NCBI GenBank assembly: GCA_007134085.1 | Contig: SLLL01000110.1 | Span: 1 to 37,087, forward strand | DNA: 37,087 nucleotides | Direction: 5' to 3' | Source: Balneolaceae bacterium | GTDB taxonomy: Bacteria > Bacteroidota > Rhodothermia > Balneolales > Balneolaceae | Shown here: positions 9,178 to 34,612 of the stretch, piece by piece | Layout of the letters: every line of letters starts with the position of its first letter | How positions within the stretch are numbered: the first letter of the stretch is position 1 | Program-made: the position numbers and the translations under genes | The notes under the pieces: generated by a model | Database searches by the model: none | What the model saw: only the letters and a program-made list of their open reading frames with translations | What the model was told of the DNA's origin: nothing

Positions 9178-9186
9178 CAGGTATAT

Positions 9187-9218
9187 TTGGCTGCGCTTGT
9201 TCTAATCTCTGCAGCCAA
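9187..9218. other. Perfect 8-bp inverted repeat between the two GH16 genes
   Basis: TTGGCTGC - 16 nt - GCAGCCAA; no clear T-tract on either side, so terminator function is uncertain. Confidence 0.5.
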
Positions 9219-9294
9219 CAAATCTGCACAAAACAACAAATAAATCTATATTCTCATTTTGTAGACACTAAGAACCAAAATTAAATCCCTCTTC

Positions 9295-10164
9295 ATGATC
9301 AATCCCAAAACATACCTCTCTCTACTTATTGCACTTTTATTTTTCACCTTCTCTTGCGACAGCAGTACATCTCTTGGTGGAAGCGCAACAAATGAAGGCG
9401 ATGATATCATCCCAACTGAGCGAGAATGGCAGCTTGTTTGGTCGGATGAATTTGATGGAGATACTTTAGACATGGAAAAGTGGTCGTACCAGTTTGGCAC
9501 CGGCAGAGAACAAGGTTTAACCGGTTGGGGTAACAATGAACTGCAATATTATACCGACAGGGAAGAGAATGTACGAGTTGAAGATGGGAAGCTTATTATT
9601 ATTGCTAAGGAGGAGTATTATGAGGGTAGAATGCACACATCTGCCCGGATAAGGACCATAGACAAAGGCGATTGGATGTTTGGGCGTATTGAAGTGCGTG
9701 CTAAGCTGCCAACAGGACAGGGCATCTGGCCAGCTATCTGGATGCTTCCATCCGGAGATAATAGATTATGGCCCCGCGATGGCGAGATCGACATCATGGA
9801 ACTGGTAGGGCATGAACCGGCAGAAGTACATGGCACCGTCCATTTTGGAACAAATGACCCTTATAACCATCAATTCGAAGGAACTGGTTACAAATTAAGT
9901 GAAGGAACATTTGCTGATGATTTCAACATCTTTTCCATAGAGTGGAAGATGGATGAAATTAAATTTTTTGTAAATGATAATCATTATTACACAGTAAACC
10001 CCGCAACAACAAGTCAGCATGGAATGCAATACCCTTTCAACAATCCCTTTCATCTTATTTTGAATGTAGCTGTTGGTGGCAACTGGCCCGGCTCTCCTGA
10101 CCACACAACCGAATTTCCACAGCAGATGGTGGTTGATTATATACGGGTTTATCAGTATAAATAG
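9295..10164 (+). CDS. Glycoside hydrolase family 16 lipoprotein (laminarinase-like), copy 2
   Basis: Lipobox-like FFTFSCDSS; DGEIDIMELVGHEPAEVHGTVHF; closely similar to the preceding GH16. Confidence 0.93.
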   Translation: MINPKTYLSLLIALLFFTFSCDSSTSLGGSATNEGDDIIPTEREWQLVWSDEFDGDTLDMEKWSYQFGTGREQGLTGWGNNELQYYTDREENVRVEDGKLIIIAKEEYYEGRMHTSARIRTIDKGDWMFGRIEVRAKLPTGQGIWPAIWMLPSGDNRLWPRDGEIDIMELVGHEPAEVHGTVHFGTNDPYNHQFEGTGYKLSEGTFADDFNIFSIEWKMDEIKFFVNDNHYYTVNPATTSQHGMQYPFNNPFHLILNVAVGGNWPGSPDHTTEFPQQMVVDYIRVYQYK

Positions 10165-10201: not shown

Positions 10202-12634
10202 TCATTCAAACCTGATAACAAGCGGAAAATTATCCATTTCTTCGGGTTTTTCCCGTAAAAAGAGAAGTTCGTACAGCTCGCCTGTTCTCCATGTTTCTAC
10301 AAACTCATCGTATGTTTCTGAAAGTGGATTGCCGGTTTGCCCACCCGGATACACTCCATAGCCTCTTACCCCCTCCGGGTCAAGCTCTACAATCATTTTC
10401 CATGATGGCCCGTGGCTCCCAAAAATTGCATTGACCGATTCGGGCCCTCCGCCCGTAAACAGATCCATAATGCCCATCCCGGGAATTTGGCCTATATGAT
10501 TGAGGTTGGTGTTGTTTACATACCCCCAAAGCCAATCATCCGTTGACTCTCCAAACCTATTCTGCAGATAGGCAATTGCGTTCTGAAAGGAGATAAAAAT
10601 CAGATCATCCAGTGTTTCGGTTTCATCAGTCAAAATATTATTGAATATCGGCGAATCTGGCTCATTCAAAATCAGTTCAACCGTAATATCTCTCCATGGG
10701 CGGCGCATAGGGAAGCCTGTATCGAATTTGTTATCCCAGATTTCACGGTTTAATTCAACCCACCATCGCCTGAAGATTGAAGGCTCGATTTTGTCACCAT
10801 CATTCATGTAATCCCACTCTAAAAGCTGATTGAGGAAGCCCCTTTGATACGCCTCAAGTTTTGTGCGTTCCGGTTCAATTCGCTCCAGCAAAACCGGCAG
10901 CAAATTGTAGGCATGGTAGCTGAAATTATCCATCAGCATATTTTTGAAATCTTCTGTGGTGATGTTATCCATCAACGCAAGCAGATCGTTAATTCGCCGG
11001 CCACGTTCAAACGGAGCAAAATCATCTCCCAAGTAGTAGGGATAATCAACATCTGCCGGATACTGATTTGCTGCGCTCAGAAATCCCCTATCAGGATTTA
11101 ATGAAAAAGGATTGTGTTCATAAGGAATAAATTCGTTCCAGCTGTATCGGGGATCTGACCCATCTCCCACCGTTCTTCCCTGATATTGCCATTTCACCGG
11201 AAACAACCCACCGGTTTGCATGGCTATGTTACCATGAATATCGGCAAAGTTCATATTCTGTGCGGGAGCTTTATACGTTCTGAATGCTTCTCTGAAATCA
11301 TCGTAATTCTCGGCTCGGTTCAGCAGGTAAAAGGTTCGCAGTTCGTTCGATGGCTCATGTGCAATCCATCGCAAGGCCAGATCTTTCTGAATGGCTTCGT
11401 TTATGGATGTTTCAGTTACACTTTCATAAACCGGGCCGTGATGCGTAAAGATTATTGTATCTGAAACGGCTTCTCCGCTATTTGTATAGATCGTTTCGAT
11501 TCGGGTTTCTGTGGGCAGCCACTCGCCATTGTATAAGTATTCGGTTTTTTCGTCATCACGAAAAGTAATTTCAAGCCAGTCCATCACAGAGGCGCCGGTA
11601 TTGGTTGATCCCCAGGCAATCTGCTCGTTAAATCCTACAATTACTGTGGGAGCCCCCTGCAATGTAACTCCATACACGTTGTGATCAGGTGTGTTCAGCT
11701 GCACTTCATACCAAATAGCGGGTGCACTCATATTCAGATGCATATCATTTGCCAGAATAGGGAACCCATCGGCCGTTTTCGATCCATCCACAACCCAGTT
11801 GTTGCTGCCGTTAAACGGATTCGGCTTCCATGGTTCTATCTGTTTTGTGAATGTGGGTTGAAAAAGAGTATCCGGCTTTTCTGCCAAAATCGGCTCGAAA
11901 TTCCATTCTGTGCCCGGGGGTATGATGGGATCCATCAAGTCCGGACGCTTACTCAGGTAGCGGTTCACGAACTCCTCTCCGTAATAAGCAATAACATTAC
12001 TGGCTTCAACTGCATTGTTATAGCCGGCAAGCATTTGAGTCATATATTTAAGCAATAAGGCTGTATTGAGGGGTTTCCATTGCTGCGGTTCAACATTCAA
12101 AACTTTGTACTCTACGGGGTATTTTTCATAATCTAATGTTACGATATAGGCATTCACACCTGCGGCATAAGCTTCAATAATTCCAAAAATTGTTTCATCA
12201 TTTTTGATCTCCTCGAGTGCTTTCTCAGCGCCATTTAGCATACCAAGCCTTCGCTGGTGGCGGTCGTATCCAATCAGATCATCTCCCAGCCACTCAGCCA
12301 AAAATCCCCCTGCTGCGCGTATCTGTAACTCCATCTGAAACAGCCGGTCTCGTGCCGTAACGTAACCTTGTGCAAAGTAGAGATCATGATCGTTTTGTGC
12401 GAAAATATGTGGCACTCCCCGCTCATCAAAAAATACATCAACCGGTTGCTGCAACCCCTCAACCTCGAGTAGAAGCTCACCACGTACCTGTACTTTCTCA
12501 GCGTTTGCAAGGAATCCAGTTGAAGGGTGAAAAAACTGGCCAACCGGAGGTAGCGGGCCAATCGCTGTAGAGTAGGTGAACCAAATAAGTGCGCCGAATA
12601 GAATTGCTGCTAACAGAGAGAGTTTTTTTGCCAT
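10202..12634 (-). CDS. Penicillin acylase family protein (Ntn hydrolase, S45)
   Basis: VDVFFDERGVPHIFAQNDHDLYFAQGYVTARDRLFQME; GSNNWVVDGSKT matches the autoprocessing/catalytic Ser site; start set at MAKKLSLLAAILF (12634) because the longer ORF to 12862 reads into repeats. Confidence 0.92.
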   Translation of the reverse strand: MAKKLSLLAAILFGALIWFTYSTAIGPLPPVGQFFHPSTGFLANAEKVQVRGELLLEVEGLQQPVDVFFDERGVPHIFAQNDHDLYFAQGYVTARDRLFQMELQIRAAGGFLAEWLGDDLIGYDRHQRRLGMLNGAEKALEEIKNDETIFGIIEAYAAGVNAYIVTLDYEKYPVEYKVLNVEPQQWKPLNTALLLKYMTQMLAGYNNAVEASNVIAYYGEEFVNRYLSKRPDLMDPIIPPGTEWNFEPILAEKPDTLFQPTFTKQIEPWKPNPFNGSNNWVVDGSKTADGFPILANDMHLNMSAPAIWYEVQLNTPDHNVYGVTLQGAPTVIVGFNEQIAWGSTNTGASVMDWLEITFRDDEKTEYLYNGEWLPTETRIETIYTNSGEAVSDTIIFTHHGPVYESVTETSINEAIQKDLALRWIAHEPSNELRTFYLLNRAENYDDFREAFRTYKAPAQNMNFADIHGNIAMQTGGLFPVKWQYQGRTVGDGSDPRYSWNEFIPYEHNPFSLNPDRGFLSAANQYPADVDYPYYLGDDFAPFERGRRINDLLALMDNITTEDFKNMLMDNFSYHAYNLLPVLLERIEPERTKLEAYQRGFLNQLLEWDYMNDGDKIEPSIFRRWWVELNREIWDNKFDTGFPMRRPWRDITVELILNEPDSPIFNNILTDETETLDDLIFISFQNAIAYLQNRFGESTDDWLWGYVNNTNLNHIGQIPGMGIMDLFTGGGPESVNAIFGSHGPSWKMIVELDPEGVRGYGVYPGGQTGNPLSETYDEFVETWRTGELYELLFLREKPEEMDNFPLVIRFE

Positions 12635-12731
12635 CAGGTAGAAATTATTTTGCCGTGATGCTTGAATAGTAAACGTTTTGTGACCAGCTATGCAACTTGA
12701 TTTATGGAGGAAATCAGATCCAACCCCCGTA

Positions 12732-12836
12732 GCTCGAAGCTCCCGCATCGAAAAGCTCAAACTCTGCATCAATATCTCAACCCTCCCCGAACGAGGACGT
12801 TCGAGGCTACGTAGATCGAAGCTCCTGCTTCGAAAA
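12732..12836. repeat. 82-bp repeat unit plus terminal partial unit (left copy)
   Basis: 12732-12813 full unit, 12814-12836 start of the next unit; matches the units at 13265-13449. Contains TCGAAGC/GCTTCGA-like and CCCGAACG/CGTTCGGG-like tetraloop hairpins. Confidence 0.85.
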
Positions 12837-12968
12837 TCCTTACAGACCACGATTTTCCACACCTACCGCCGTTTAGCCAACAAGAAATGACAACGCTCGC
12901 GATATGCCATTGATCTTAGCTAACCTATACTTCCATTGGCATTGAGCCTTAATCCATCCCAAAATCCA

Positions 12969-13212
12969 GCCCGGTTACGGGCGGCCGATATCGTAACCCA
13001 TGGTTTCCGCAAAGCGATCCCGTCGGGGTAACCATGGGCCTGGAAGGCACCCCAAACTGCAAAAGTGCCATAGGCACGATCCATATAGGCAACGTCCCGA
13101 GTTACGATCAATTCGCATCCCGGTATCCAAACCATAACCAATCGTATAAAGTGTGCCTGACGGCACTCTTTGGGTTTTGGGGCACACCCAATCCAGGGGA
13201 TAAATCCCTTGG
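12969..13212. repeat. Cluster of short inverted repeats (hairpin mosaic)
   Basis: GCCCG-gtta-CGGGC (12969-12982); CCCATGGTT...AACCATGGG (12997-13005/13030-13038); GTGCC-ata-GGCAC (13065-13077); GTGCC-tgac-GGCAC (13153-13166); CCAGGGGAT-aa-ATCCCTTGG (13193-13212, one mismatch). Confidence 0.8.
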
Positions 13213-13264
13213 CTACGACGTGTATCGTCCGCCAGCGAACTTATTTGATACATGTTTACGCGTA

Positions 13265-13449
13265 AATCGAAGCTCTTGCCTCGAAAAGCTCAAACTCTGC
13301 ACCAATATCCCATCCTCCCCCGAACGGGGACGTTCGGGCCACGTAGATCGAAGCACCTGCTTCGAAAAGCTCAAACTCTACATCAACATCCCAACCCTCC
13401 CCGAACGGGGACGTTCAGGGCTACGTAGATCGAAGCTCCTGCTTCGAAT
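13265..13449. repeat. Two tandem 81/82-bp repeat units plus a terminal partial unit (right array)
   Basis: Unit starts at 13265, 13346 and 13428; core gatcgaagcNcctgcttcgaaaagctcaaactctNcatcaacatcccaaccctccccgaacggggacgttcNgggctacgta. Confidence 0.88.
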
Positions 13450-13488
13450 ATCATTTATTAAACTTCTCTTAAAGCATCATTCATAAAG

Positions 13489-14293: not shown

Positions 14294-15586
14294 TTACTCA
14301 ATCGGGGAAAGTACACCCGTTGTATGGATAAAAATAAAGGCATCGTAACGATCTGCAAGCAGCGATGGCACATAATTCCCCTGATCTCCTGCCGGATTAT
14401 ATGTAACACCAATTGCCCTGTGGGGCACAGGGTTTTGAAGCTCTGCAATCAGATCATCCTGATCAAAGATTAAAAAGAGCCGCTCAAGGCCTGTTTCCAT
14501 CAGTATATGCTCCCAGCTGCCGGTTTGTGCATTCGGGGTTTCCATGGCCTGCATGGCTCCTTCCCAGTTACTTGCGGCAAGAACCTGGCCGGTGTAGGTT
14601 CCAAATCCTATCGCAAATGTGTTTTCACGGCCGAGCGCCTCACGGCTAAGCTGCCCAATATTTAAAACACCCATTCTCCCCATGTCCGTTGCACGGGCAT
14701 CGCCAATATGGGTATTATGTGCCCATATGATTCCCCTGCTGTTTTTACTATAAAAATCAAGAAGCCTTTCTGCGGTTAGGTAAAAGTGCAAGGCACGGTA
14801 ATTCCATGAAGCAGCACCACCCTCCAAATTTGCCCGGTAGTGTAGCTCGGCATTTACAGCCACTTTTGCGCCGTGCTCTGCTCTGAAAAACTCCCAGGCA
14901 TCAATTTCATCTGCATTGCGCAATGACTGTACCGTTTCGAGTACCCCTGCTATGTCATCTCCGCAATGCTGGCCGGTTCTCGCTACCATCTGTATGTAGT
15001 TCCCGATGTCGGCGTGGCGTGTCATACAGGAGTAGGCCCGTTCTGCACTTCTTCCCAAACCTGAATCTACACTGTTTAACCAGTTGACCACGTCCTGCAT
15101 AGCCGTTTCGTGATCGTAAACATCAATGCCGTACAATCCCACTCTCTTGTCCATGTCAAGATTAGCATTATACTCGTGTAACCACTCCACAAGCGCTTTA
15201 AATTCGTGGTTTTTCCACATCCACAAAGGCCAGCGCGTTAAGGCATTCATAGCATCATCTATGGTAGCCGGTGCACCCGGTTTATGTTTAACAAACTCAT
15301 TGATGCGGGCCATTGCCGCCCAGTCTCCCTCAACGGCAATAAAGTTAAACCCACGCTCGGCAACTAAATGCTTACTCATTGCCGCGCGTTTTGTGTAGAA
15401 CTCAGAAGTTCCGTGAGAAGCTTCTCCCATAAGTACCAGCCGCTCTGATGTGATGGCGTCTGTTAAAGCGGATAGTTCAAACCGATCTTCAAATGGAACT
15501 GCATGTTGCAAAATCAGATCGGGTGATTGCGAAAATGCTGCTGATCCAAATAATAAGAACAGTAGAAGTAAGCATAGTTTTTTCAT
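14294..15586 (-). CDS. Erythromycin esterase family protein (secreted)
   Basis: Signal peptide; LVLMGEASHGTSEFYTKRAAMSKHLVAERGFNFIAVEGDW; GIIWAHNTHIGDARATDMGRMGVLNIGQLSREALG. Confidence 0.9.
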   Translation of the reverse strand: MKKLCLLLLFLLFGSAAFSQSPDLILQHAVPFEDRFELSALTDAITSERLVLMGEASHGTSEFYTKRAAMSKHLVAERGFNFIAVEGDWAAMARINEFVKHKPGAPATIDDAMNALTRWPLWMWKNHEFKALVEWLHEYNANLDMDKRVGLYGIDVYDHETAMQDVVNWLNSVDSGLGRSAERAYSCMTRHADIGNYIQMVARTGQHCGDDIAGVLETVQSLRNADEIDAWEFFRAEHGAKVAVNAELHYRANLEGGAASWNYRALHFYLTAERLLDFYSKNSRGIIWAHNTHIGDARATDMGRMGVLNIGQLSREALGRENTFAIGFGTYTGQVLAASNWEGAMQAMETPNAQTGSWEHILMETGLERLFLIFDQDDLIAELQNPVPHRAIGVTYNPAGDQGNYVPSLLADRYDAFIFIHTTGVLSPIE

Positions 15587-22476: not shown

Positions 22477-23136
22477 TTAGTTTTGAGGGGGTGCTATAAT
22501 ATTGTGCTGAAATGCATATTTCACAAGGCCTGCGGTATTTCTTGCGCCTGTTTTTTGTAATAAGTTTCTGCGATGAGCATCTACGGTTCTGGAGCTTATA
22601 AAAAGCTTTTCTGCAATTTCATGATTGGTAAATTCCTGCACTATCAACTCAAGTATTTCAAGCTCTCTGTCGGTTATGTGTACAGAATCAGGCGAAGTTG
22701 GTTTGCCTTTCCCTTTTACAAGGTCCATCATAATACTGTACGTTGCTTCATCACTGAAATAATGTTTTCCATTCATTATAGAATTGATTGCATCTTTCAA
22801 TTCATTCCGCCCTGCACTTTTCATGATATAACCCGATGCACCAGCCTGTATCATCTGCCTAATGTGCAGATCATCGTTACTCATGGTCAGGGCTAACACT
22901 TTTACATCCGGGTAGGTATTTTTAATCTCTTTAGTTGCCGTTATTCCATCCATCTCAGGCATATTAATATCCATTATCACAATATCAATCAATGTATCTT
23001 TAAGTTGCTCTATAGCCTCGGCACCGTTGTTCGCTTCAGCTACAACATCTATTCCCACCTGCGTTTCGAGCATTAACTTAATACCATCCCGAACAATTTT
23101 ATGGTCGTCTACTAATAGAACTTTTACATTTGCCAT
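22477..23136 (-). CDS. NarL/LuxR-family response regulator
   Basis: VLLVDDHKIVRDGI, IVIMDINMPEMDGI, LALTMS, GYIMKSA; HTH ITDRELEILELIVQEFTNHEIAEKLFISSRTVDAHRRNLLQKTGARN. Confidence 0.95.
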   Translation of the reverse strand: MANVKVLLVDDHKIVRDGIKLMLETQVGIDVVAEANNGAEAIEQLKDTLIDIVIMDINMPEMDGITATKEIKNTYPDVKVLALTMSNDDLHIRQMIQAGASGYIMKSAGRNELKDAINSIMNGKHYFSDEATYSIMMDLVKGKGKPTSPDSVHITDRELEILELIVQEFTNHEIAEKLFISSRTVDAHRRNLLQKTGARNTAGLVKYAFQHNIIAPPQN

Positions 23137-23151
23137 GATCTGGTAGTTACT

Positions 23152-26100
23152 TTATAGCGATACTACAATATTTACAATTGTACCGCGGCCTTTGTTACTT
23201 ATTATATCGAGCTCAGCTGCCATTGCCGCGGCCCTTGTTCGCATACTGCGTATTCCAAGGCCAAAATGGCTTTCATCATTTAAATCAAACCCTACTCCAT
23301 TATCTTCTATGGTAAGAAGAAGCTCTTTTTCTGAATATACCAATTGCACATCAACTCGCTTAGGCTTTCCATGCTTGATAGCATTGTTAACTGCTTCCTG
23401 AAATATACGATACAAATTTATCTGAACTTTATCAGATATCTCTGCACCCTCAAGATTTTTGTAAAAGTAAAAATCAATTTCATTACTGTTTTTAAGGTGG
23501 CTGATGAGTGATTCAATTGCAAGCTCCAGGCCGTAATCCTGAATTGCTTTGGGCAATAAATTCTGAGAAATATTACGTGTTTCTGATATAGCATGGCTCA
23601 AAAACTCAAGCCCTGACTGATAAGCACCATGTAACCTGTTTGAGATTTCTGGAAGGTCTTCGAAAACAGATTTCAGATTCATATTTGCAGCTGATAAATA
23701 TTGCCCGAGGCCATCGTGCAGCTCTTTTGCTATACGCTGCCGTTCCTGCTCTTCACCTTCAATAATGGCACTTATTGCGCGTTCTTCTGCTCTTCTCTGT
23801 TCTGTAATATCATGGGCAATTACAAGCCGATGAATTTTCCCTTTATAAAAAATGTCAGAAGCAGATACTTCCACTATCAGCTTTTCACCCTGTTTGGTAA
23901 AATGAACCCACTCTCCAAAAGAGGTTTTGCCTCTGTTTTTCTTTATATCTTGTTTAACTTTTTCTATTTCACTCTCATCTCTTATACCAAAGATTTGCAT
24001 CTCTAATGCTTCCTCTTTGCTATATCCATACGTCTGAGAAAAGGCATCATTTACAGAACTAAATTTATATGTATCTGGATCAAAAATAATCATGGGTATT
24101 GGGTTCTGCTCAAAAAGAAGCCTGTATTGCTCTTCAGATGCTTTTAACTCTTCGTTAGATTTTACCTCAGTAGTTACATCTGAAATAGCGCCTATCATGT
24201 ATTTCATTTTACCATTTTCATCCCGCACAAAATATCCTCTGTCTATTACAATGGAGTATTCTCCAAAACCGTTTTTGAATCGATAGTACTCAACCCATGA
24301 ATCTTTTCCAGAATCAATAGCCATATTGAGGCTTTTGATTATGTTATTCACGTCTTCAGGATGCACCCTGCTTTCCCACCATTTGATTGAATTTTCAACC
24401 TCATTTTCTTTAAAACCAAACCTCATAAACCAACCATCACTCCACCAAACAGTACCGGATTCATAGTCCCAGTCATACAAAACATCATTCGAGCTTTTTG
24501 CAATCATCTCGAACTTGTAACTCTGCTCAGACAGGGCTTTTCTATACTCTATTTCCTGGGTTTTATCAACCATTGCACCGATAATTCTCAATATCGAGCC
24601 ATCTTCTTTTCGTAGAATTGTAGCTGTATCCTCAACGCTCTTTTTTGATCCGTCAGCTGCATAGAATTGGTACTCTTCCGACCAGAACGTTGAGCCATCG
24701 TTTTCAGCAGTTTCCATGCTATTTATGACACGTTCTTGGTCTTCCTCCACAATTTTTTCATGCCAGAATCTATTATTTCCCTTATACTGCTCTTTTGTAT
24801 ACCCAAGTACAGATTCAATACCATCTCCCCACCATAGCTTATTTTCCTCGGGGTTCCACTCCCAAATCACATCCGTTGTTAAGTTGGCTGCAACCTCAAA
24901 TCGTTTTTGCTCTTGCTGCAGTTTGTACTCCATAAATTTCGTTTCTGTTATATCCAAAACAGTTCCGGCAAAGATGTATTTAGCTGTATTAGAATCAAAA
25001 ACACGTTTACCTCTTACCTGTACAAAACCTGTCTGCCCATTACTCCTTATTATTCTATGGTTCAGCTCAAAGCTATCTTTCTCGATATATTCTGATATGG
25101 TATCCCTTACAAGATCAACATCATCATGATGAGACAAGCTGAGATAACGTTCGAGATTGGGGTTGAATTGATCAGGGTCTTTATCGTAAATCTCATAAAC
25201 AATGTCAGACCACCACAGTTCACTGCTCTCAATATCCAATGACCAATACCCTAATCGCGCAATTTCCTGAGCTTGCAAAAGCCTTTCCTGGTTTCGCATT
25301 AATTCATACTGCTGTGCTTTGATTCGCGAAATATCCTGCACGGTACTAATTCGATATCCCCTTCCAGTATCGGAATCGGTAACTAATGTAAGGTTAACAA
25401 GTGCATCAAACGTTGAGCCATCCTTGCGCATCATTTCACTCTCAAAGATGGTAAAACCAAAATCATCGAGCTCTTTAATGATTCTGTTTATATCATTCTT
25501 CGACTTCTCAGAATAGAGCCTGTTCACAGGCATTCCTTCCATCTCATCCTTAGAATACCCAAACAGCTCTGCATAGGCTCCATTAACTCTCTCAAGTTTA
25601 TTGGTTTGATGGTTACTGACAGACAGGCCGGTGTTTGATTGTAAAAACACCTCAGCAAGTAACTGATTTTCTTTTTCAAAGTTTACTCTGTCAGTAATAT
25701 CTACATGAGTTCCGGCAAGCCTGGTTGGTTTTCCGTCTTTGTCCCATTCCACGGTTCTGCCACGATCTAAAATCCACACCCAGTGGCCTTTTTTGTGTTT
25801 CATCCTCACTTCTATTTCATAGATTTCAGTCTTACCTTTGAAGTAATCCTCAACTGATTTCTCAAACCGTAAAAGGTCATCAGGATGCACCAAACTGTTC
25901 CACGTTTCAATTGATATTGGCTCCAGCTCCTCCTTAGTGTAACCAACAAGTAAAGCCCACATGTCGTCGATTTCAACCTGACCTGTCTGTGGATACCACT
26001 CCCATGCACCTACATTTGCACTGGTTGTTGTAAGCTCCAGCCTCTCTTTACTCTTCTGAATGCTCTCTTCCAGGTTTTTTCTTTCGGTGATATCTACTCC

Positions 26101-27369
26101 AATACCTATATATTTATCTTCACTTATTCTGGCATTAATCCAGGTGGTGTAGAGTTTTTCTCCGCTTTTACTGATCAGCTCAAAATCCGACCATTTACCT
26201 TCTGCCTTAGAAATCTCTTCTTTTGCTCTGTTATAATCTTCCTTTGTTGTAATCAGTTGCAGGAGATGGCCTTTTTTTGCATCCTCGTTTGTATATCCAA
26301 CCTTTTCCTCAAAATATTTATTTACAGTAATTACATTGGAGCCGTTGTCATGCAGATTGATGAAAACAGGCATATTATCGAAAATTGCCCGCAGCTCTTC
26401 ACGTTCTGCACGTAACTGATTTTCAAGTTTTTTCCTTTCGGTTATATCATAACCAACACCAACAAAAGAGTTATCACTGAGCGCAATATTGGTCCACAAT
26501 TGGTTTCTAATTTCGCCACTTTTTGTATGAACTTCAGATTCAACCCATCCCTTTACCCTCTTGTGAATAATATCCAGAACCCTATTTCTTGCTTCAGGGT
26601 CAGGATAACACAATTCAAGCAGTGAGCTTTTCTCAACATCATCGTACGTCCATCCTAAAATATCCTGGTGGTATTTATTGAACTTTATCAGGTTATTTTC
26701 TTTATCGTAAAAGTTGATCAACACCGGTATTCTGTCGAACAGCTTTTCAAGGCGCTCTCTTTCTAATTTCAGCTGTTCTTCGAGCAGTGTATTCTCTGTG
26801 ATATCAAGCGTTACCCCGCTTACTTTTTTAATGGCTCCGTTTTCAATAGTAGCCTCCCCTCTTGACCAGAGCCATCGAACAGAGCCATCGGGCAAAACAA
26901 CCCTGAACTTTACATTTAAGTCCTCACCTTCACGTAACGTTTTATCACCCTTTTTTTTGAATATCTCAGCATCATCTTCATAAATAATTCCAAGTACATC
27001 AGAGCGGGCTAACTCTTTGTTAGGAGAAATACCCAAAAGTGGGTTGTGATTATTTGAGGTGATGTAAGAATCGGTTTCAGGAAAATATTCCCAGGTAGCA
27101 ATCTGTGCAGAATTCAGGGCAAGATTCAGGCTTTTTTCTCTTTCCCTCAGTTTACGCTCATTTACGGAAATGTAGTTTTCATAACTCTTTATCATCCAAT
27201 AAAGTACAAGGGCAGTCATAATCACATAGAAGTAGCCCTTTGCAGTTTGTAGTCGCGAAAGGAGAATAATATCATCCACAAACCACTCTAAAATCTGATC
27301 GGTTGTGGTAATCCAAACTAATGCAAAACCGAGATAGATTAATGCAATGCGTAAAGGTGTAAATCTCAT
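23152..27369 (-). CDS. Large membrane-associated multi-PAS (about 9 PAS) histidine kinase with HisKA_3
   Basis: Two N-terminal TM segments; nine PAS-like blocks ending in DITE/DITD-type motifs; EEQERQRIAKELHDGLGQYLSAANMN; FQEAVNNAIKHG; IEDNGVGFD; GLGIRSMRTRAAAM. Confidence 0.95.
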   Translation of the reverse strand: MRFTPLRIALIYLGFALVWITTTDQILEWFVDDIILLSRLQTAKGYFYVIMTALVLYWMIKSYENYISVNERKLREREKSLNLALNSAQIATWEYFPETDSYITSNNHNPLLGISPNKELARSDVLGIIYEDDAEIFKKKGDKTLREGEDLNVKFRVVLPDGSVRWLWSRGEATIENGAIKKVSGVTLDITENTLLEEQLKLERERLEKLFDRIPVLINFYDKENNLIKFNKYHQDILGWTYDDVEKSSLLELCYPDPEARNRVLDIIHKRVKGWVESEVHTKSGEIRNQLWTNIALSDNSFVGVGYDITERKKLENQLRAEREELRAIFDNMPVFINLHDNGSNVITVNKYFEEKVGYTNEDAKKGHLLQLITTKEDYNRAKEEISKAEGKWSDFELISKSGEKLYTTWINARISEDKYIGIGVDITERKNLEESIQKSKERLELTTTSANVGAWEWYPQTGQVEIDDMWALLVGYTKEELEPISIETWNSLVHPDDLLRFEKSVEDYFKGKTEIYEIEVRMKHKKGHWVWILDRGRTVEWDKDGKPTRLAGTHVDITDRVNFEKENQLLAEVFLQSNTGLSVSNHQTNKLERVNGAYAELFGYSKDEMEGMPVNRLYSEKSKNDINRIIKELDDFGFTIFESEMMRKDGSTFDALVNLTLVTDSDTGRGYRISTVQDISRIKAQQYELMRNQERLLQAQEIARLGYWSLDIESSELWWSDIVYEIYDKDPDQFNPNLERYLSLSHHDDVDLVRDTISEYIEKDSFELNHRIIRSNGQTGFVQVRGKRVFDSNTAKYIFAGTVLDITETKFMEYKLQQEQKRFEVAANLTTDVIWEWNPEENKLWWGDGIESVLGYTKEQYKGNNRFWHEKIVEEDQERVINSMETAENDGSTFWSEEYQFYAADGSKKSVEDTATILRKEDGSILRIIGAMVDKTQEIEYRKALSEQSYKFEMIAKSSNDVLYDWDYESGTVWWSDGWFMRFGFKENEVENSIKWWESRVHPEDVNNIIKSLNMAIDSGKDSWVEYYRFKNGFGEYSIVIDRGYFVRDENGKMKYMIGAISDVTTEVKSNEELKASEEQYRLLFEQNPIPMIIFDPDTYKFSSVNDAFSQTYGYSKEEALEMQIFGIRDESEIEKVKQDIKKNRGKTSFGEWVHFTKQGEKLIVEVSASDIFYKGKIHRLVIAHDITEQRRAEERAISAIIEGEEQERQRIAKELHDGLGQYLSAANMNLKSVFEDLPEISNRLHGAYQSGLEFLSHAISETRNISQNLLPKAIQDYGLELAIESLISHLKNSNEIDFYFYKNLEGAEISDKVQINLYRIFQEAVNNAIKHGKPKRVDVQLVYSEKELLLTIEDNGVGFDLNDESHFGLGIRSMRTRAAAMAAELDIISNKGRGTIVNIVVSL

Positions 27370-27463: not shown

Positions 27464-28612
27464 CTACCACTTTCCTTCGCGTACCGGATAGCTGCCCAAA
27501 ACCTTTAAATACTGTGCTTTTTTCGCCAGTTTTTCGAGTGCATCTGCCACTCTTGAGTTATTAGTATTGCCCTCAATATCAAGATAAAAAAGTGATTGCC
27601 ACGGATGCCCCATTCGCGGGCGAGACTCCAGTTTCGTCATATTTATTCCATTGGCATCGAGCAGGTTAAGGCACTTTAATAAAGCACCCTTTTCATCGAT
27701 TGTAGCGAAGATGAGGGATGTTTTACAGTTGAGCTGAGGGTCGCAGGAAATCTCATCTTTATTCACTATTACAAAGCGCGTGAAGTTGTCTTCCTGATTA
27801 GCTAAATCGCGTTTCAATATGTTTAAACCATAAATTTCAGCGGCATATGAGCTGGCTATTGCAGCTTGCGAAAGGTCATCATCATCCCGCACTTTCCGGG
27901 CAGCCATGGCAGTATCGAAATACGACTCTACATGGCACCTAGGCAGCGAGCTCAAAAAACGGCTGCACTGTGCAATAGCCTGCGGGTGAGATAAAATTCT
28001 CCTTACATTGCTCAATTGAACATTCTCCGGAGCCATTAGGCAGTGATTAATTTTCAGAACCTCCTCACCAATAATGTAGAGGTTCTTTTCATTAAGAAGA
28101 TCGTAGGTATCGTTGATGGAGCCGGCAGTAGTATTCTCAATCGGCAGAATGGAAACGTCAACATCGCCTTTTTCAACAGCATCAGCAGCTTCTTCAAAAC
28201 GGGTGTACCCAATACACTCCACATGCTTATACCGCTGTTTAAAATGCCGCATAGCCGCCTGATGGCTAAACGCCCCGTCAGTACCCTGATAAGAAACACG
28301 TATCACCTCTTCTTGTGCCTTATCGTTCTGATGGTCTAATAACGCATGTGTTTGGTAACGGACCGAGTGTTGAATAATCTCACGGAACAGCTGCTCAAGG
28401 AAAAAAGGATCCATGCCTGCTTCAGGCGCTTTTTCACGAATTTTCTTCAGCAACTTTTCCTCCCTTTCGGGATCGCGGATTTCGTCTGCACGTTCAAGTT
28501 TATCATGAATAACCTGCTGTACCACTTTTTGCCTTTCACCCAATGCTTTTACAATGGCATCATCGAGTTGATCGATGGTTTTTCGGATCTCTTCCAGTCG
28601 TTTTTTTGACAT
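27464..28612 (-). CDS. pheA: Bifunctional chorismate mutase / prephenate dehydratase (P-protein) with ACT domain
   Basis: AroQ-like N-terminus; VSYQGTDGAFSHQAA; ILPIENTTAGSINDTYDLL; ACT region KLESRPRMGHPWQSLFYLDIEG. Confidence 0.93.
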   Translation of the reverse strand: MSKKRLEEIRKTIDQLDDAIVKALGERQKVVQQVIHDKLERADEIRDPEREEKLLKKIREKAPEAGMDPFFLEQLFREIIQHSVRYQTHALLDHQNDKAQEEVIRVSYQGTDGAFSHQAAMRHFKQRYKHVECIGYTRFEEAADAVEKGDVDVSILPIENTTAGSINDTYDLLNEKNLYIIGEEVLKINHCLMAPENVQLSNVRRILSHPQAIAQCSRFLSSLPRCHVESYFDTAMAARKVRDDDDLSQAAIASSYAAEIYGLNILKRDLANQEDNFTRFVIVNKDEISCDPQLNCKTSLIFATIDEKGALLKCLNLLDANGINMTKLESRPRMGHPWQSLFYLDIEGNTNNSRVADALEKLAKKAQYLKVLGSYPVREGKW

Positions 28613-28614
28613 TC

Positions 28615-30327
28615 TTAGCGAATCTGTTTCTTCAGTTCCTGTATGCGTGTTAATACGTTATTACGGTCTAATTTACGGAATCGATCGGGTAAAAGTGCTT
28701 TTGATGTGCATTCTGCCACAGCTGTTAATGTTTGCAGTTCAACTTCGTCGGGATAAGTAGGCGGGAGAAAATCTTCGAAAACCGAATCTAAAATTTCAGG
28801 TGTAGTTTTATCAAGCCCTTCTGATGCTGTTCTGAACTTGGCTCTTGTAAGTGCAGCTTCCATATCGGCGCCGGAATAATTGGCATTGCCTTTTAATACT
28901 GCAGCCGGCACATACGGCTCAGAGAGTTCAAGGCCTGTTTTTTTCTGCATTGCCTCAAACAGTTCGATACGCTCTTCTTTTGTTTCGGGCGGAAATAGCG
29001 CAATATGCTCCTCAGCACGTCCCTGCCTTTTCAGGTCAATCGGCATCAGGTCAGGCCGGGCTGTCATCAAAAACCAGATGATTCGCCCACGGTTTTCGGT
29101 ATTACTCATAAACGTGGCAATCTGCGAAAACACCCTGCTCGAAACACCACTATCACCTGATGCGGCCCTGTCGCCCAGATAGGCATCGGCTTCATCAATC
29201 ATCACTGCCACTGGAGACATGGCCCTGAGTAAATTCAGAATTTTTTCAAGATTCCCCTCTGTAACACCCTGCCACTGGCTGCGGAAGTTTTTAAGCTTTA
29301 CCATGGGTATGCCTACCTCTCCCGAAAACGAGGTTACCAAAAAAGTTTTACCGGTACCAACCGGGCCGCAGACAAGATAACCCATTGGCAGCACATCGCG
29401 CCGGCCGGCTTTTAGTGCATTTACAGCCTGCCTCAGGTGATATTTTACTTTTTTATGGCCTGCCACTGAATCGAGATTTCCTTTGGTGTTAACAAACTCC
29501 AGCAAGCCGTAAGCCTCTGCTTCAATCATCTCTTTTTTGATTTTTGTAAGCGAACCAAAGGTTATTTTCTCACCATTTTGTACTGCATTAGAAAGAATGC
29601 TCTTGAGCTTCAGGTAGCCAAGGCCGGCTGTCATCTGTGCCATCACCTTTTCAGGCACTGAAGAAATCTCATTATATCGTTTAGGGTCAATTTCTGCCTT
29701 GATGAACCGAAGCCTGCCATCCTCATCAGGCAGAGTTATACGAACATCCGATGAGTATGGATTTTGCAGAAGTGTTCGGTTCAGGTCTGCCCGGTTTTCG
29801 GTGAGGAGTACTGTGGTAAAATCTGCTGCAAGAAAAAGCGGGTCATGAGCCCATTTCAACAGATAGACGAGCGAATTTCGGTCTTCGGTTCCTGAACTGC
29901 CGGTATCGCTTGCAGGCACAATGGTTTCTGCAAAATCGATAATAAGGGCAATACTTTTGTTCTGGTCGAGCCGCGAACGGAAATATTGCTCAAGAATAGA
30001 GAAGACCCGCACAGGATCTTTTGGCAGCTTTTTAGCATACTCCGTTCCGGCAAACGAATCCTGGCCGGCAACTGCCCGGCTAAAATCCCGTTGTGAATCC
30101 TGATCTCGGAAATAGATACCGGAGGCACGGTCGTAGAAAACCACAATATCACGGGCACCAAAAAACTCTTCCGCCATGAATGTTTTCAGGCGCAGATATT
30201 TTTTATCTGTTTCAGGCCCTACAGGTACAAGGTCGTGTACATTTCCATGTATGATAAACTGGTTAAGCGTTCTGCTGAGATACTTTCTAGCGAGCTGCCC
30301 TGCCCATTCGGGATATGTATCTATCAT
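28615..30327 (-). CDS. Two-module AAA ATPase: N-terminal module without Walker A, C-terminal classic AAA module
   Basis: Walker A GPVGTGKT (aa 321-328), pore-loop-like SQWQGVTE, Walker B VAVMIDEAD, sensor/SRH MTARPDLMPIDLKRQGRAEEHIALFPP. N-terminal half has Walker-B-like SIALIIDFAE but no P-loop. Confidence 0.88.
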   Translation of the reverse strand: MIDTYPEWAGQLARKYLSRTLNQFIIHGNVHDLVPVGPETDKKYLRLKTFMAEEFFGARDIVVFYDRASGIYFRDQDSQRDFSRAVAGQDSFAGTEYAKKLPKDPVRVFSILEQYFRSRLDQNKSIALIIDFAETIVPASDTGSSGTEDRNSLVYLLKWAHDPLFLAADFTTVLLTENRADLNRTLLQNPYSSDVRITLPDEDGRLRFIKAEIDPKRYNEISSVPEKVMAQMTAGLGYLKLKSILSNAVQNGEKITFGSLTKIKKEMIEAEAYGLLEFVNTKGNLDSVAGHKKVKYHLRQAVNALKAGRRDVLPMGYLVCGPVGTGKTFLVTSFSGEVGIPMVKLKNFRSQWQGVTEGNLEKILNLLRAMSPVAVMIDEADAYLGDRAASGDSGVSSRVFSQIATFMSNTENRGRIIWFLMTARPDLMPIDLKRQGRAEEHIALFPPETKEERIELFEAMQKKTGLELSEPYVPAAVLKGNANYSGADMEAALTRAKFRTASEGLDKTTPEILDSVFEDFLPPTYPDEVELQTLTAVAECTSKALLPDRFRKLDRNNVLTRIQELKKQIR

Positions 30328-30368
30328 AACTTTTTCTTTTCACTGTTATTCGCTAAATGGCTACCCTG

Positions 30369-31652
30369 CTAATCTCCAGTACCTGTAATAAGCTTTACAG
30401 TTTCCAGCTTACTTTGGGTTGCCTTCGTAATTATAAACGTATTTCCGTTGATCAAAATCTCTTCATTCACTTTTGGAATTCGGCCGGTATGATGAATAAT
30501 GTAACCAGCTACCGTTTCGAAATCATCATCTTCATAATTAAAAACAATTTCAGGATAATGCTCCTCAAGGTCATCCAGTTCAACCGAGCCCGATAGCAGA
30601 AACGTGTTATGATTGATCTTCTTAATCACATCACTTTCTTTATCATACTCATCCTGAATATCGCCTACCACCTCTTCAATTAAATCTTCAATGGTTACCA
30701 TACCCGCTGTACCTCCATATTCATCAATTACCACCGCAACCGAAATGTTACTCTGCCTGAATTCGGTTAACAGGTCTTTCGATTTTTTACTGGATGGAAT
30801 AAGCTTTACCGGCCGTATGATCTCACTGATGTCCTTCGGGTTGCTGAACATATCATATGCAAAAACCACCCCGATAATGTCATCAATTGTGTCCTGGTAA
30901 ACCGGAACTTTTGAGTAGCCCGATTCAATGAATGCCTTTTTAAGATCCTGCAGGCTGGCGCTCTTTTCAACAGCAACAATTTCTGTACGGGGTACCATCG
31001 TTTCGCGAACCCGCTTATTGGAGAGCTCGAGAACGTTATGCAGTATTTCCGAATCATCATGATCAATATCCTTGCTGCCGCCGCTCTCCTTAAGTTCTCT
31101 GAAAATCATTTCAACGTCCTGCCGCCGAAATACTTTATCACTACGTTCATTGCCTACTTTAAGCATTCGAATGAGCAAACCGGATGCACTGTTGCTCAAA
31201 TAGATGAGTGGCCATAACAGATATTCAGTTATTCGCAAAGGAATGGCAATAACTTTAATGATATGATCTGCCAGTACCCTGAAAATGGCTTTGGAAAGAA
31301 TTTCTCCAAATAAAAGAATTAGTACCGAAGCGATGACAGTCTGGAGAAAAAGAACCATCGCCCCGCTCGGCATATCCGCAAAAAACGAAGAGTACATGGC
31401 ACGGATGGGTTCAGCGAGGAAAATGGCCATCAGTGTAGCATAAGCCACATTGATGATGTTATTCCCTACAAGTGTTGTGGAGAGAAATTTTTCGGGATTG
31501 TCACTAAAATAGGCGAGCGACCTGCCACGAAATGTATCTTTACGCGACTCTATTTCGAGCTTCAGTTTGTTGGCGGTTACAAATGCCATTTCCGAACCCG
31601 AAAAAAAAGCACTAATCAGAATTACAATTACAATGTAAAAAACTTCAGGCAT
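30369..31652 (-). CDS. CNNM/HlyC-CorC family membrane protein (DUF21 + CBS pair + CorC_HlyC)
   Basis: FYIVIVILISAFFSGSEMAFVTANK; NKRVRETMVPRTEIVAVE; VVIDEYGGTAGMVTIEDLIEEVVGDIQDEYD. Confidence 0.93.
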   Translation of the reverse strand: MPEVFYIVIVILISAFFSGSEMAFVTANKLKLEIESRKDTFRGRSLAYFSDNPEKFLSTTLVGNNIINVAYATLMAIFLAEPIRAMYSSFFADMPSGAMVLFLQTVIASVLILLFGEILSKAIFRVLADHIIKVIAIPLRITEYLLWPLIYLSNSASGLLIRMLKVGNERSDKVFRRQDVEMIFRELKESGGSKDIDHDDSEILHNVLELSNKRVRETMVPRTEIVAVEKSASLQDLKKAFIESGYSKVPVYQDTIDDIIGVVFAYDMFSNPKDISEIIRPVKLIPSSKKSKDLLTEFRQSNISVAVVIDEYGGTAGMVTIEDLIEEVVGDIQDEYDKESDVIKKINHNTFLLSGSVELDDLEEHYPEIVFNYEDDDFETVAGYIIHHTGRIPKVNEEILINGNTFIITKATQSKLETVKLITGTGD

Positions 31653-31691
31653 CTAGGAGGTTTCGCAAAGGTTGAAATTGAGAACTGGCTA

Positions 31692-32477
31692 TCATCTGCC
31701 TTTAAACTCTGCTTTTCTTTTTTCGAGAAATGCGCCGGTACCCTCGGTAAAATCTTCTGTTTCGCACAGGCCTCCAAAAAGTACAGCTTCACGGGCAAAT
31801 CCGTTTGCATTGCCTGCCCGGTTTACCGCCTCAATTGCCGCAGCGATTGCAAGCGGGCCATTTTTGCTGATGGTTGCGGCCAGTTTTTTAGCATATTCAA
31901 GTGCTTCATCAGCAGGCAGAACAGCGTTTACAAGGCCGGTTTGAAGGGCTTGTTCTGCATTAATTGGTTTTCCGGTGAGAATCATCTCCATCGCTTTCGA
32001 TTTACCTACCAAAGCAGGCAGGCGCTGCGTACCACCATAACCCGGAATCAACCCAAGAGAAACTTCGGGCAAACCAATTATTGCATTTTCTGTTGCTACC
32101 CTCAGGTGGCAGGCCATTGCCAGTTCAGCGCCGCCACCAAGTGCATAGCCATTTACCAGTGCAATTACAGGTTTTCTGCTTGTTTCAATAGCCTCAAAAA
32201 TCTGCTGTCCTCTGGAAGCAAGTTTCTCACCCGCCTGCTTATTTAACGTACTTAGCTCTTTGATGTCGGCGCCGGCTACAAATGCTTTCTCCCCGGCACC
32301 CGTGATGATGAGCACTTTGATGGCATCATCGGCTTGTACCATTTCTACCGCATCAGAAAGCTCGCTGAGCACCTGTGCGTTTAACGCATTCAGTTTGTCA
32401 GGGCGGTTTATGGTAAGTGTGGCAACGCCATTCTCATCGGCATCTAACAAAATCGTCTCAAATTCAGGTTGGCTCAT
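31692..32477 (-). CDS. Enoyl-CoA hydratase/isomerase (crotonase) family protein
   Basis: LTINRPDKLNALN, AFVAGADIKEL, ALGGGAELAMACHLRVA, LPEVSLGLIPGYGGTQRL. Confidence 0.95.
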   Translation of the reverse strand: MSQPEFETILLDADENGVATLTINRPDKLNALNAQVLSELSDAVEMVQADDAIKVLIITGAGEKAFVAGADIKELSTLNKQAGEKLASRGQQIFEAIETSRKPVIALVNGYALGGGAELAMACHLRVATENAIIGLPEVSLGLIPGYGGTQRLPALVGKSKAMEMILTGKPINAEQALQTGLVNAVLPADEALEYAKKLAATISKNGPLAIAAAIEAVNRAGNANGFAREAVLFGGLCETEDFTEGTGAFLEKRKAEFKGR

Positions 32478-33358
32478 ACAGATTTTCTAACTTTCTTTTC
32501 TGTTTCGGTGTGCAGCTTTTCAGCATCTTTTTTCAGCTCGGCTAATTTAAGCTCTTTATCCATCTCTTCCATACCGGGGAACATATCATATTCCAGTTCC
32601 TCAATAACTGTGGTGGTCTCTTCAACCTCACTGAGAAGATGGTCAAGTTGATGCCCAACATCATCGGCGTTCGGCATGGTCATCGATTGTTCATAGATAT
32701 ATCTGATGGCATCTTCTATAGTATCGAGATGCGTTTCGGTAATCAAATACTTCTCTTTTGCTGTATCAAACTTTTTGAGGCGCTTGTTCAGAATACTCAG
32801 CCGCCGTTTTCCTGTGGCAAGAAGCTGTTCAGAGTCTGTTTCATTCAGTTTCGACTCCTGAAGTTTAACATCCCGCCGAATTTCATCCTCCACTTCCGAG
32901 TTCATATAAACCTCATATCTTCTGTGCATTTCAAGAAGATTAAGGTAGGTTGAGAGCAGATCTTCCATCTTATTTTGAATATGCTCCAGCATGCCTTTTG
33001 AGGAGTATGGAAGTGTATCAAAATTCTTTTTAACCTCTTTGGTGATGTGTTTCAACACCAGAAAACGTTTTTGCGATTTCGCATCAAGGCGATAAAAAAC
33101 CTGCTTTTCGTTCGATCCCTGCTGCTGCTCTTCTTTCTCTTTCTTCAGCCGGATATTTTTTTGATAGGATGGCAGCCTTGGCACAATACCCAAGTAGATA
33201 AGCTCCATCCCAAAAGCGAAGGCAAGAATTGCGTTAGGGGCAAGGCCAACATCGTTCAAAACAAGTGCGGATACCATTGCCACCAGCAGGCAAACAAGGT
33301 TTACCGGATGCAAAAATGCTTCTTTGGTGAAGTTTGTCTCTTTCTGTTCAGTTTCCAT
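32474..33358 (-). CDS. Uncharacterised protein with two N-terminal TM helices and long coiled coil
   Basis: LVCLLVAMVSALVLNDVGLAPNAILAFAFGMELIYLGIVP then a charged helical region; 4-bp overlap with the downstream crotonase; start abuts the stop of the upstream gene. Confidence 0.8.
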   Translation of the reverse strand: METEQKETNFTKEAFLHPVNLVCLLVAMVSALVLNDVGLAPNAILAFAFGMELIYLGIVPRLPSYQKNIRLKKEKEEQQQGSNEKQVFYRLDAKSQKRFLVLKHITKEVKKNFDTLPYSSKGMLEHIQNKMEDLLSTYLNLLEMHRRYEVYMNSEVEDEIRRDVKLQESKLNETDSEQLLATGKRRLSILNKRLKKFDTAKEKYLITETHLDTIEDAIRYIYEQSMTMPNADDVGHQLDHLLSEVEETTTVIEELEYDMFPGMEEMDKELKLAELKKDAEKLHTETEKKVRKSV

Positions 33359-33805
33359 CTACTTGTTTTCAGAATCTTGCTTTGGTTCCGTTTCGCCATC
33401 CGGTACTTTTCGTCCAACGGTTTTTTCGGCCTGCAGTTCATCAGCCTGTTGCTCAATTTCCCGGTAAAGCAAACCCATCTCCATTTTTATCTGTTTCAGC
33501 GTATTCTTGGCATTCTCTTTTCTCATCGATTCATCGAGCTCGGCATCGCTGGTATCACTCTCCATAAAGTGATCCATCGCTACATCGAGCCGGGCTTCAA
33601 TATGTGCCATTTTGTGGCGAACTTTTCCGAGAAAATCATCCACAGATGAGAGCAATTCATCAGAATTCATGCGCCTAAGTGATTCGTTCACATTCTGAAC
33701 ATAGGTTGAACGCCGGAGTTTTTCTTTTGCATCACGTATCTTCCGATAGTGATCTTTGTACTCCTCTTTGAGGCGTCTCCGCTCTTGTTCGCTGTTGCTA
33801 CTCAT
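33359..33805 (-). CDS. Uncharacterised soluble coiled-coil protein (148 aa)
   Basis: Highly charged, helix-rich sequence; lies 42 bp downstream of pspA; stop abuts the next ATG. Confidence 0.78.
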   Translation of the reverse strand: MSSNSEQERRRLKEEYKDHYRKIRDAKEKLRRSTYVQNVNESLRRMNSDELLSSVDDFLGKVRHKMAHIEARLDVAMDHFMESDTSDAELDESMRKENAKNTLKQIKMEMGLLYREIEQQADELQAEKTVGRKVPDGETEPKQDSENK

Positions 33806-33847
33806 GGGTTTGTCAATTTTGGATGAACATCAGCCGTTTCACAGTTA

Positions 33848-34612
33848 CTAAGCTTTGGTACGGCCTTTACCGATTGTTTTTTGAGACTCTTTCGCAGGCT
33901 CTTCTTCCTCATCAACCTCAATTTTCTTACTCTTAGGTGCTGGCTCTTCAGCTTTACCCATCTCCTGCTTAAACTGGTTCACAAGTTCTTGCGCGCGCAA
34001 TTTCTCGGCATTGGCTTCAATTTCCATTGTTTGGGTATCTACGCTTTCAAGGGCAATTTCCATCCGGGCTTCGTTGCGTGCTGTCTGCTCGTTCAGCCTG
34101 TTTACCATCTCACTGTGGGTTTGATCAAGCCCGCCCATCTCGAATGATTCAAGCGCATCAGCCACACGGCTCTGCCACTCTGCACGTTCACTCGCACGCA
34201 GCGCTTCACGTGCCTCTTTGATCTTCCGGTCTTTTTCGCGCATAAATGCCTGTTTCACTTTTATCGCTTTATCGTAAGCTTCATCGGCATACTTCATCTG
34301 CTGTTTAGACTGCGCAAGATTTTCTTTCGCCTTTTCGAGCTGTAGGGCATACCCTTCTGCAAGGTCATCCCGGTCGGCATTAATCGCCGATTTAATTTTT
34401 GCTGTGATCTCTGCAATTGTTTTTTCGTAGCGTTCTACCTCTTTGCGCAACATTACAGCATTCGCTTTTACAGTCGCGATATTTTCATTCATCTGAGGTA
34501 TCTGGTCGTTGAGCTCACGAATATTTTGCTCAAGAATAAGTTTGGGGTCTTCCATGGAGCTAACCATTCCGCCAAACATAGATTTAATGGCTCTGATAAA
34601 TCGTTTAAACAT
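33848..34612 (-). CDS. pspA: PspA/IM30 (Vipp1) family protein
   Basis: MFKRFIRAIKSMFGGMVSSMEDPKLILEQNIRELNDQIPQMNENIATVKANAVML...; amphipathic N-terminal helix plus long coiled coil; acidic/lysine-rich C-terminal tail. Confidence 0.9.
   Translation of the reverse strand: MFKRFIRAIKSMFGGMVSSMEDPKLILEQNIRELNDQIPQMNENIATVKANAVMLRKEVERYEKTIAEITAKIKSAINADRDDLAEGYALQLEKAKENLAQSKQQMKYADEAYDKAIKVKQAFMREKDRKIKEAREALRASERAEWQSRVADALESFEMGGLDQTHSEMVNRLNEQTARNEARMEIALESVDTQTMEIEANAEKLRAQELVNQFKQEMGKAEEPAPKSKKIEVDEEEEPAKESQKTIGKGRTKA

Follow-up and report, generated by a model that had tools for sequence, protein, structure and literature searches.

A putative Cdc48-type tandem ATPase and a C-terminal tail tag suggest a remodelling module for PspA polymers

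In the window analysed here (the whole 37,087 nucleotides of contig SLLL01000110.1, assembly GCA_007134085.1, from a Balneolaceae bacterium of the class Rhodothermia), a gene for PspA, a member of the ESCRT-III superfamily, begins a string of six genes that ends with an ATPase of two AAA modules (the AAA protein). Does this ATPase act on PspA? Between the two lie genes for a 148-residue and a 294-residue coiled-coil protein (cc148 and cc294), a crotonase/enoyl-CoA hydratase (ECH) and a CNNM/CBS/CorC_HlyC transporter-like protein (CNNM). We found a short C-terminal tag on PspA and cc148 that accompanies the ATPase across genomes, and we lean towards the operon being an ATP-driven remodelling module for PspA polymers, with the ATPase recruited through the tail tag. 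A functional link between the ATPase and PspA is very likely, and there is a good probability that PspA-family polymers are the substrate; whether the ATPase itself recognises the tag is evenly balanced.

A tandem ATPase linked to PspA

The AAA protein is present in 136 of the 146 Rhodothermia genomes and PspA in 142. All 136 AAA-positive genomes of the class have PspA, and the four genomes that have no PspA are all without the AAA protein. The order pyrimidine phosphorylase-PspA-cc148-cc294-ECH-CNNM-AAA is unbroken at 21/21 Balneolales AAA loci from five families; hence, the gene order is far beyond chance. PspA, cc148 and cc294, often with ECH and CNNM, are found together class-wide, which ties the coiled-coil genes to PspA throughout the class. 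Within the class, the AAA gene physically joins this block in Balneolales only. At the Rhodothermia loci outside Balneolales, its typical neighbours are aldolase-like, amidohydrolase-like and EutN/CcmL-like genes (named by eye). L058, L064 and L071 are among the loci at which the AAA gene lies near a small EutN/CcmL-like gene and amidohydrolase-like genes; the EutN-like gene is common to three loci.

Beyond the class, a scan of Bacteroidota found the AAA family in 98 of 395 genomes, all but one of which belong to Rhodothermia. In this outlier (G356, locus L208) a cc294 homolog lies directly upstream of the AAA gene (hhalign E=5e-9); PspA is encoded elsewhere in the genome, and none was found in the stretch of L208 examined. 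The 236-aa gene that follows the AAA gene at L208 was considered as a PspA and set aside, since its coiled-coil match to PspA was weak at best. When bacterial genomes were scanned with an alignment that had the outlier's AAA sequence at its head, and the best-ranked 80 loci were kept as a sample and not a census, relatives were found in Planctomycetota, Acidobacteriota, Armatimonadota, Riflebacteria, Fibrobacterota, Myxococcota, Verrucomicrobiota, Elusimicrobiota, Cloacimonadota, Ignavibacteriota and others. Either pspA or a cc294 relative is in the flank at 56 of the 71 AAA loci outside Rhodothermia, with many flanks incomplete, and at 27 of the 71 a distant cc294 homolog stands directly upstream of the AAA gene. 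Many phyla have the layout PspA / PBP-OmpA / ABC permease / ABC ATPase / cc294 / AAA (by Pfam), Verrucomicrobiota have PspA-(transmembrane protein)-AAA, others have PspA-AAA or AAA-PspA, and the cluster is looser in Myxococcota. PspA is present in 28/28 AAA-bearing genomes examined outside the class, and in about 33 of the 149 Bacteroidota sampled from outside it (a count of listed genomes). The co-occurrence of the AAA gene with pspA and the coiled-coil genes, on which the initial annotation had staked its proposal, is thus present in related genomes and in many phyla.

Among the Myxococcota, a Ser/Thr protein kinase gene is near the AAA gene at L249, L251, L254, L255, L259, L263, L270, L272, L274, L286 and L288. 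This kinase has an HRD[VI]SPQN-type active site and is encoded one or two genes upstream of the AAA gene.

The AlphaFold2 model of the AAA protein (pLDDT 90, pTM 0.84) was matched by Foldseek over its full length to the D1-D2 modules of Cdc48/p97, Afg2 and NVL (E ~1e-20, query TM-score up to 0.58). In an alignment of 49 members, the first module has GxxxxGK[ST] in 0/49, and the second module has a GxxGTGKT-type Walker A, a DEAD Walker B, a pore loop of the FR[S/D]xWxGxTE type and a conserved RQGR arginine region. Since the first module has no Walker A and the motifs of the second are kept, we take the protein, as modelled, to be a tandem of Cdc48 type in which the first module is dead and the second works. 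The Walker A, Walker B and pore-loop motifs that the initial annotation had read in the second module are conserved in this alignment, and its placing of SQWQGVTE at pore loop 1 is borne out both by that conservation and by the alignment to the SKWVGESE stretch of 5vc7, an archaeal VCP-like ATPase. Its likening of the protein to Vps4, katanin and spastin does not extend to the architecture: the full-length match is to the Cdc48/p97/Afg2/NVL group, and no family match to an MIT domain was found in the AAA protein. Hence, with two modules and no MIT domain found, the protein is not a Vps4.

Such a fold would also suit a general Cdc48-like quality-control unfoldase that shares an envelope-stress operon with PspA for regulation only, and the AAA gene is indeed separate from pspA, beside unrelated metabolic genes, in most Rhodothermia that are not Balneolales. 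We regard this as distinctly unlikely, because the AAA protein is strictly dependent on the presence of PspA, its gene is linked to pspA independently in many phyla, and it was lost jointly with cc148 and the tag (described below). The two metabolic/transport genes inside the string could even suggest a chance or purely metabolic arrangement with no functional meaning; the conserved order across Balneolales and the recurrent linkage in unrelated phyla effectively refute this, and we give it a negligible chance.

The C-terminal tag and the coiled-coil proteins

Both PspA and cc148 have an acidic, flexible C-terminal tail that carries K[T/S][I/V/L/M]G. The tag, scored as [KR][TS][ILVM]G anywhere in the final 25 residues, is present in the PspA of 103 of 115 AAA-bearing class genomes; among 580 background open reading frames (ORFs), taken from 20-kb loci in related genomes, 2 have it, and shuffled tails gave a mean of 1.0. 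For cc148, for which the last 60 residues were scored, 104 of 106 proteins have it (shuffled mean 1.4), and at least one of PspA and cc148 carries it in all 115 AAA-bearing class genomes. The cc294 proteins have the tag in 0/113. A literature search for the tag string together with PspA returned nothing relevant, which is not proof of its being unreported.

Related tags (KELGP, KDMGP, RNMGP, KSMGP, KTIGK) are present in 34 of 42 AAA-linked PspAs from other phyla, and in 0/29 PspAs from those Bacteroidota that are outside the class and have no AAA protein; the Fisher p of 6e-13 for this comparison is descriptive, since the general tag pattern was drawn up after the tails had been seen. PspA paralogs that are not linked to the AAA gene in AAA-bearing genomes (L072, L291, L292, L319) are without the tag. 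The paralog at L072 (G071:C4:3889858-3890544) is a second, classical PspA that sits untagged beside the tagged one in a Rhodothermia genome and serves as an internal control. The AAA tree has strongly supported clades, and we read the tag type as following them, T/S (KTIG) with one clade and mostly acidic/GP forms (KELGP, KDMGP) with the other.

Three near-complete Balneolales genomes (G090, G108 and G113) are without the AAA protein, cc148 and the PspA tag and keep PspA, ECH and CNNM. By family labels, these are two separate joint losses: G108 and G113, which form one lineage, keep cc294, and G090, from another lineage, has lost it. What is left of the AAA gene in G090 is a decayed C-terminal fragment with two TAA stops, at 4849-5055 of L082 (contig C11), exactly downstream of CNNM. 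Hence, the loss in G090 is real and not an assembly gap. The joint losses are evidence independent of shared ancestry.

These losses bear on a different division of labour, in which the ATPase serves the PspA system and the tag is read by a kinase, a phosphopeptide-binding domain, a protease or the membrane, while the partner of the ATPase is cc294 or an envelope transporter and PspA is just co-regulated as a stress protein. For this speak the 27 loci with cc294 directly upstream of the AAA gene, L208 with no PspA in the stretch examined among them, and the operons of many phyla that also encode an ABC transporter and an OmpA/NMT1-type binding protein. A phosphosite would fit the second tag position, which is T/S in one AAA clade and in the other often D/E, and at several Myxococcota loci the kinase gene is immediately upstream of the AAA gene. 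However, G108 and G113 lost the ATPase and the tag and yet kept cc294; hence, the tag tracks the AAA protein and not cc294. Moreover, cc294 is itself untagged, and the Rhodothermia operon is without a kinase. Overall, we find this arrangement rather unlikely and prefer an ATPase that works on tagged PspA polymers.

The initial annotation had left both coiled-coil proteins unassigned; they prove to be unlike each other, and one of them can now be placed. cc148 matches PspA residues 129-219 by BLASTP (E=1e-7, composition-adjusted) and by profile-profile comparison (E=5.7e-14, and 1e-19 with more members), and the homology spans PspA residues ~128-220 only. By sequence comparison, cc148 is a paralog of the C-terminal half of PspA and thus a partial ESCRT-III superfamily member, one that has no N-terminal amphipathic helix and lacks most of the membrane-binding hairpin, and that keeps the hairpin end and the C-terminal helices. 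A search of solved structures with cc148 gave nothing, so its assignment rests on the homology to PspA. Since helix alpha5 is swapped between subunits in ESCRT-III polymers (PMC8281802), a fragment of the cc148 type could cap or join a PspA polymer.

For cc294, the AlphaFold2 model (pLDDT 90) has helices at residues 18-33 and 40-61, which look membrane-spanning, followed by a long coiled coil, and the protein is conserved class-wide. No relation to the ESCRT-III superfamily was detected, by comparisons that have little power for coiled coils: hhalign against PspA/Snf7 gave a probability of 2%; Foldseek gave no PDB match at E<=0.001 (the best were BAR-type coiled coils at 0.16); and a search of solved structures by sequence gave no relative at a convincing E-value. 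We therefore rejected cc294 as an ESCRT-III/Snf7 protein, as profile, fold and structure-sequence searches all leave it unsupported. From the model, a role for cc294 as the membrane anchor is a reasonable guess.

Together, these parts suggest the following sequence of events. PspA would form ESCRT-III-like polymers on the inner membrane, which cc148 probably joins or caps, and the two transmembrane helices of cc294 would hold the machine at the membrane. The AAA protein would assemble as a hexamer of Cdc48 type, in which the D1 ring is dead and the D2 ring works, and bind the C-terminal K[T/S][I/V/L]G tag on the flexible acidic tails of PspA and cc148. It would then thread the tail into its pore via the aromatic pore loop FRSQWQGVTE and extract subunits with ATP, and this extraction would drive polymer turnover, in the way that Vps4 turns over ESCRT-III. 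The analysis shows the genes and their conserved linkage, the paralogy of cc148 with PspA, the tag that was lost jointly with the ATPase, and the modelled tandem AAA fold; we infer that the ATPase forms hexamers, that it recognises the tag and takes the polymer apart, and that the machine is anchored at the membrane. A more detailed version, which we offer tentatively and hold to be doubtful, is that the Cdc48-type tandem reads a K[T/S/D/E]xG tag, that tagged cc148 is both cap and adaptor, recruiting the ATPase to the polymer, and that T/S as opposed to D/E reflects phospho-regulation as opposed to constitutive engagement, depending on the lineage.

Several points weigh against a tag-guided ATPase that remodels PspA polymers. 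At 19 Rhodothermia AAA loci outside Balneolales, no pspA is present in the flanks examined (mostly ~9 kb per side). Three AAA-negative genomes (G107, G128 and G141) keep the tag; they are 89-92% complete, and the gene is perhaps unassembled. The linked PspAs form their own subfamilies, so shared ancestry is part of the tag signal, and the direct support for a tie between the AAA protein and the tag consists of the two independent joint losses, one of them from two related genomes. Finally, membrane remodelling by PspA rods can proceed in vitro with no partner ATPase present (PMC11746142).

Layout of the gene string and its surroundings

The six ORFs are all on the minus strand (Table 1), with their order, sizes and gaps agreeing to the base with those first annotated. 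From pspA to the AAA gene, the intergenic distances are 42 bp, abutting, a 4-bp overlap, 39 bp and 41 bp. Upstream of pspA, 81 bp away, is a pyrimidine-nucleoside phosphorylase gene, and a bifunctional chorismate mutase/prephenate dehydratase gene (27464-28612) starts 2 bp downstream of the AAA gene. Promoter and terminator scans gave nothing above shuffled expectation; hence, the transcription units are not readable from the sequence.

Table 1. Features of the pspA-AAA gene string (positions are those of the window)
Feature	Positions	Strand	Basis
pspA: PspA/Vipp1-family protein, 254 aa, ESCRT-III superfamily	33848..34612	-	PF04012
PspA C-terminal tag KTIG, residues 245-248, behind acidic linker	33869..33880	-	
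cc148: 148 aa, half-length PspA paralog	33359..33805	-	BLASTP and profile-profile
cc148 tag KTVG, residues 128-131	33413..33424	-	
cc294: 294 aa, two putative N-terminal membrane helices, then long coiled coil	32474..33358	-	AlphaFold2
Crotonase / enoyl-CoA hydratase (ECH), 261 aa	31692..32477	-	PF00378 E=2e-68, synteny
CNNM/CBS/CorC_HlyC transporter-like protein, GldE-like, 427 aa	30369..31652	-	PF01595, PF00571, PF03471
Tandem AAA ATPase, 570 aa, degenerate D1-like and predicted active D2-like module	28615..30327	-	AlphaFold2, Foldseek
Degenerate first AAA module, residues ~1-280, without Walker A	29488..30327	-	49-member alignment, fold
D2 Walker A GPVGTGKT, residues 321-328	29344..29367	-	49-member alignment
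D2 pore loop 1 FRSQWQGVTE, residues 348-357	29257..29286	-	49-member alignment
D2 Walker B AVMIDEAD, residues 374-381	29185..29208	-	49-member alignment

Pfam recognised PspA_IM30 (62 bits, against a curated cut-off of 33.9), AAA (87 bits), ECH_1 and CNNM/CBS/CorC_HlyC, and for cc148 and cc294 no family was above its cut-off. PspA is single copy in the source genome, and its residues 1-201 match Vipp1/PspA structures when searched as a profile of 16 class members. The CNNM protein scored 251 bits against TIGR03520 (GldE), under the cut-off of 376. The crotonase is probably a passenger or a co-regulated gene that is kept in the block. A reading of the locus as anti-phage defence was rejected, as PADLOC gave just weak matches to IetA (a generic AAA) and to coiled coils.

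Elsewhere in the window, a 1405-aa protein (23152-27369) is by eye like a multi-PAS sensor histidine kinase, and its gene is adjoined by a response-regulator-like gene (22477-23136). Also by eye, two tandem, closely similar secreted proteins (8365-10164) resemble laminarinase-type glycoside hydrolases of family GH16, and a 430-aa secreted protein (14294-15586) resembles the erythromycin-esterase family. On the plus strand, the ORF at 13034-13486 consists of an imperfect internal repeat (..SCLEKLKL.. / ..TCFEKLKL.., ERGRSG); this ORF looks like an intergenic repeat and not a gene, and a stretch that resembles it lies near the start of the 10202-12862 ORF.

Relation to known systems

The AAA family described here, which occurs in many phyla, provides a specific candidate for the motor that would disassemble PspA/Vipp1 polymers. 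The tag is short and can be deleted, so that the question of polymer disassembly can be addressed by simple pull-down and disassembly assays. If the proposal is true, tail-guided ATPase remodelling of ESCRT-III-type polymers occurs in bacteria too, with a different (Cdc48-type) motor.

One entry of an earlier survey is relevant, CBH24266.1, which we take to be from Salinibacter. It stands for Bacteroidetes loci that have PspA, a Snf7-like gene and a third, PspA-like coiled-coil gene, as given in the accessible sections of Ravi et al. 2024 (mSystems; PMC11237479). The same sections report PspA beside a protein with two AAA+ copies, the N-terminal one inactive, propose ATP-dependent membrane remodelling, and describe longer operons with an ABC ATPase, a permease and a PBP/OmpA protein (PMC11237479). 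Hence, as far as those sections go, the pairing of pspA with two AAA+ modules and an inactive N-terminal copy is shared, and the ABC/OmpA operons are seen again here; new relative to them are the C-terminal tag of PspA, the half-PspA cc148, the joint loss and the Balneolales operon with crotonase and CNNM. In the literature searched, which was that outside subscription, we found no experimental test of the AAA-PspA link predicted in 2024. The initial annotation was therefore good in function and wrong in family: the idea of an ATPase acting on PspA and its coiled-coil partners is strengthened by their linkage across phyla, the Vps4 family is replaced by a Cdc48-type PspA partner, and the idea was known in outline from the accessible part of Ravi et al. 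2024.

The present system shares with ESCRT-III/Vps4 (Cdv in archaea) an ESCRT-III-superfamily polymer, here PspA, that is linked to an AAA ATPase with a W-containing pore loop, and a motif in the C-terminal tail of the polymer subunit, positioned like the MIT-interacting motif (MIM) of ESCRT-III. To our knowledge, the tag is unrelated in sequence to known MIMs. Vps4/CdvC recruits ESCRT-III by C-terminal tail motifs; here a C-terminal tag covaries with the ATPase, which may bind it. Vps4/CdvC has an N-terminal MIT domain and a single AAA module, whereas the present ATPase is a tandem with a first module predicted to be dead and no MIT domain detected.

With PspF-PspA of enterobacteria, the shared feature is an AAA+ protein paired with PspA. 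PspF is an enhancer-binding AAA+ protein of the NtrC type and has a DNA-binding domain (accessible sections of PMC11237479), whereas no DNA-binding domain was detected in the present ATPase. Liu et al. 2021 describe it as unclear whether PspF acts on PspA in a Vps4-like way, or whether an equivalent ATPase exists for Vipp1 (PMC8281802).

The closest architecture is that of Cdc48/p97, Afg2/Drg1 and NVL, which share the D1-D2 arrangement across the whole model and the classic AAA motifs in D2. Cdc48/p97 has a double-psi N-domain and two active rings, whereas the present protein starts at the D1-like module, and its D1 is without a Walker A. Unlike all of these, the present ATPase is bacterial and tied to PspA.

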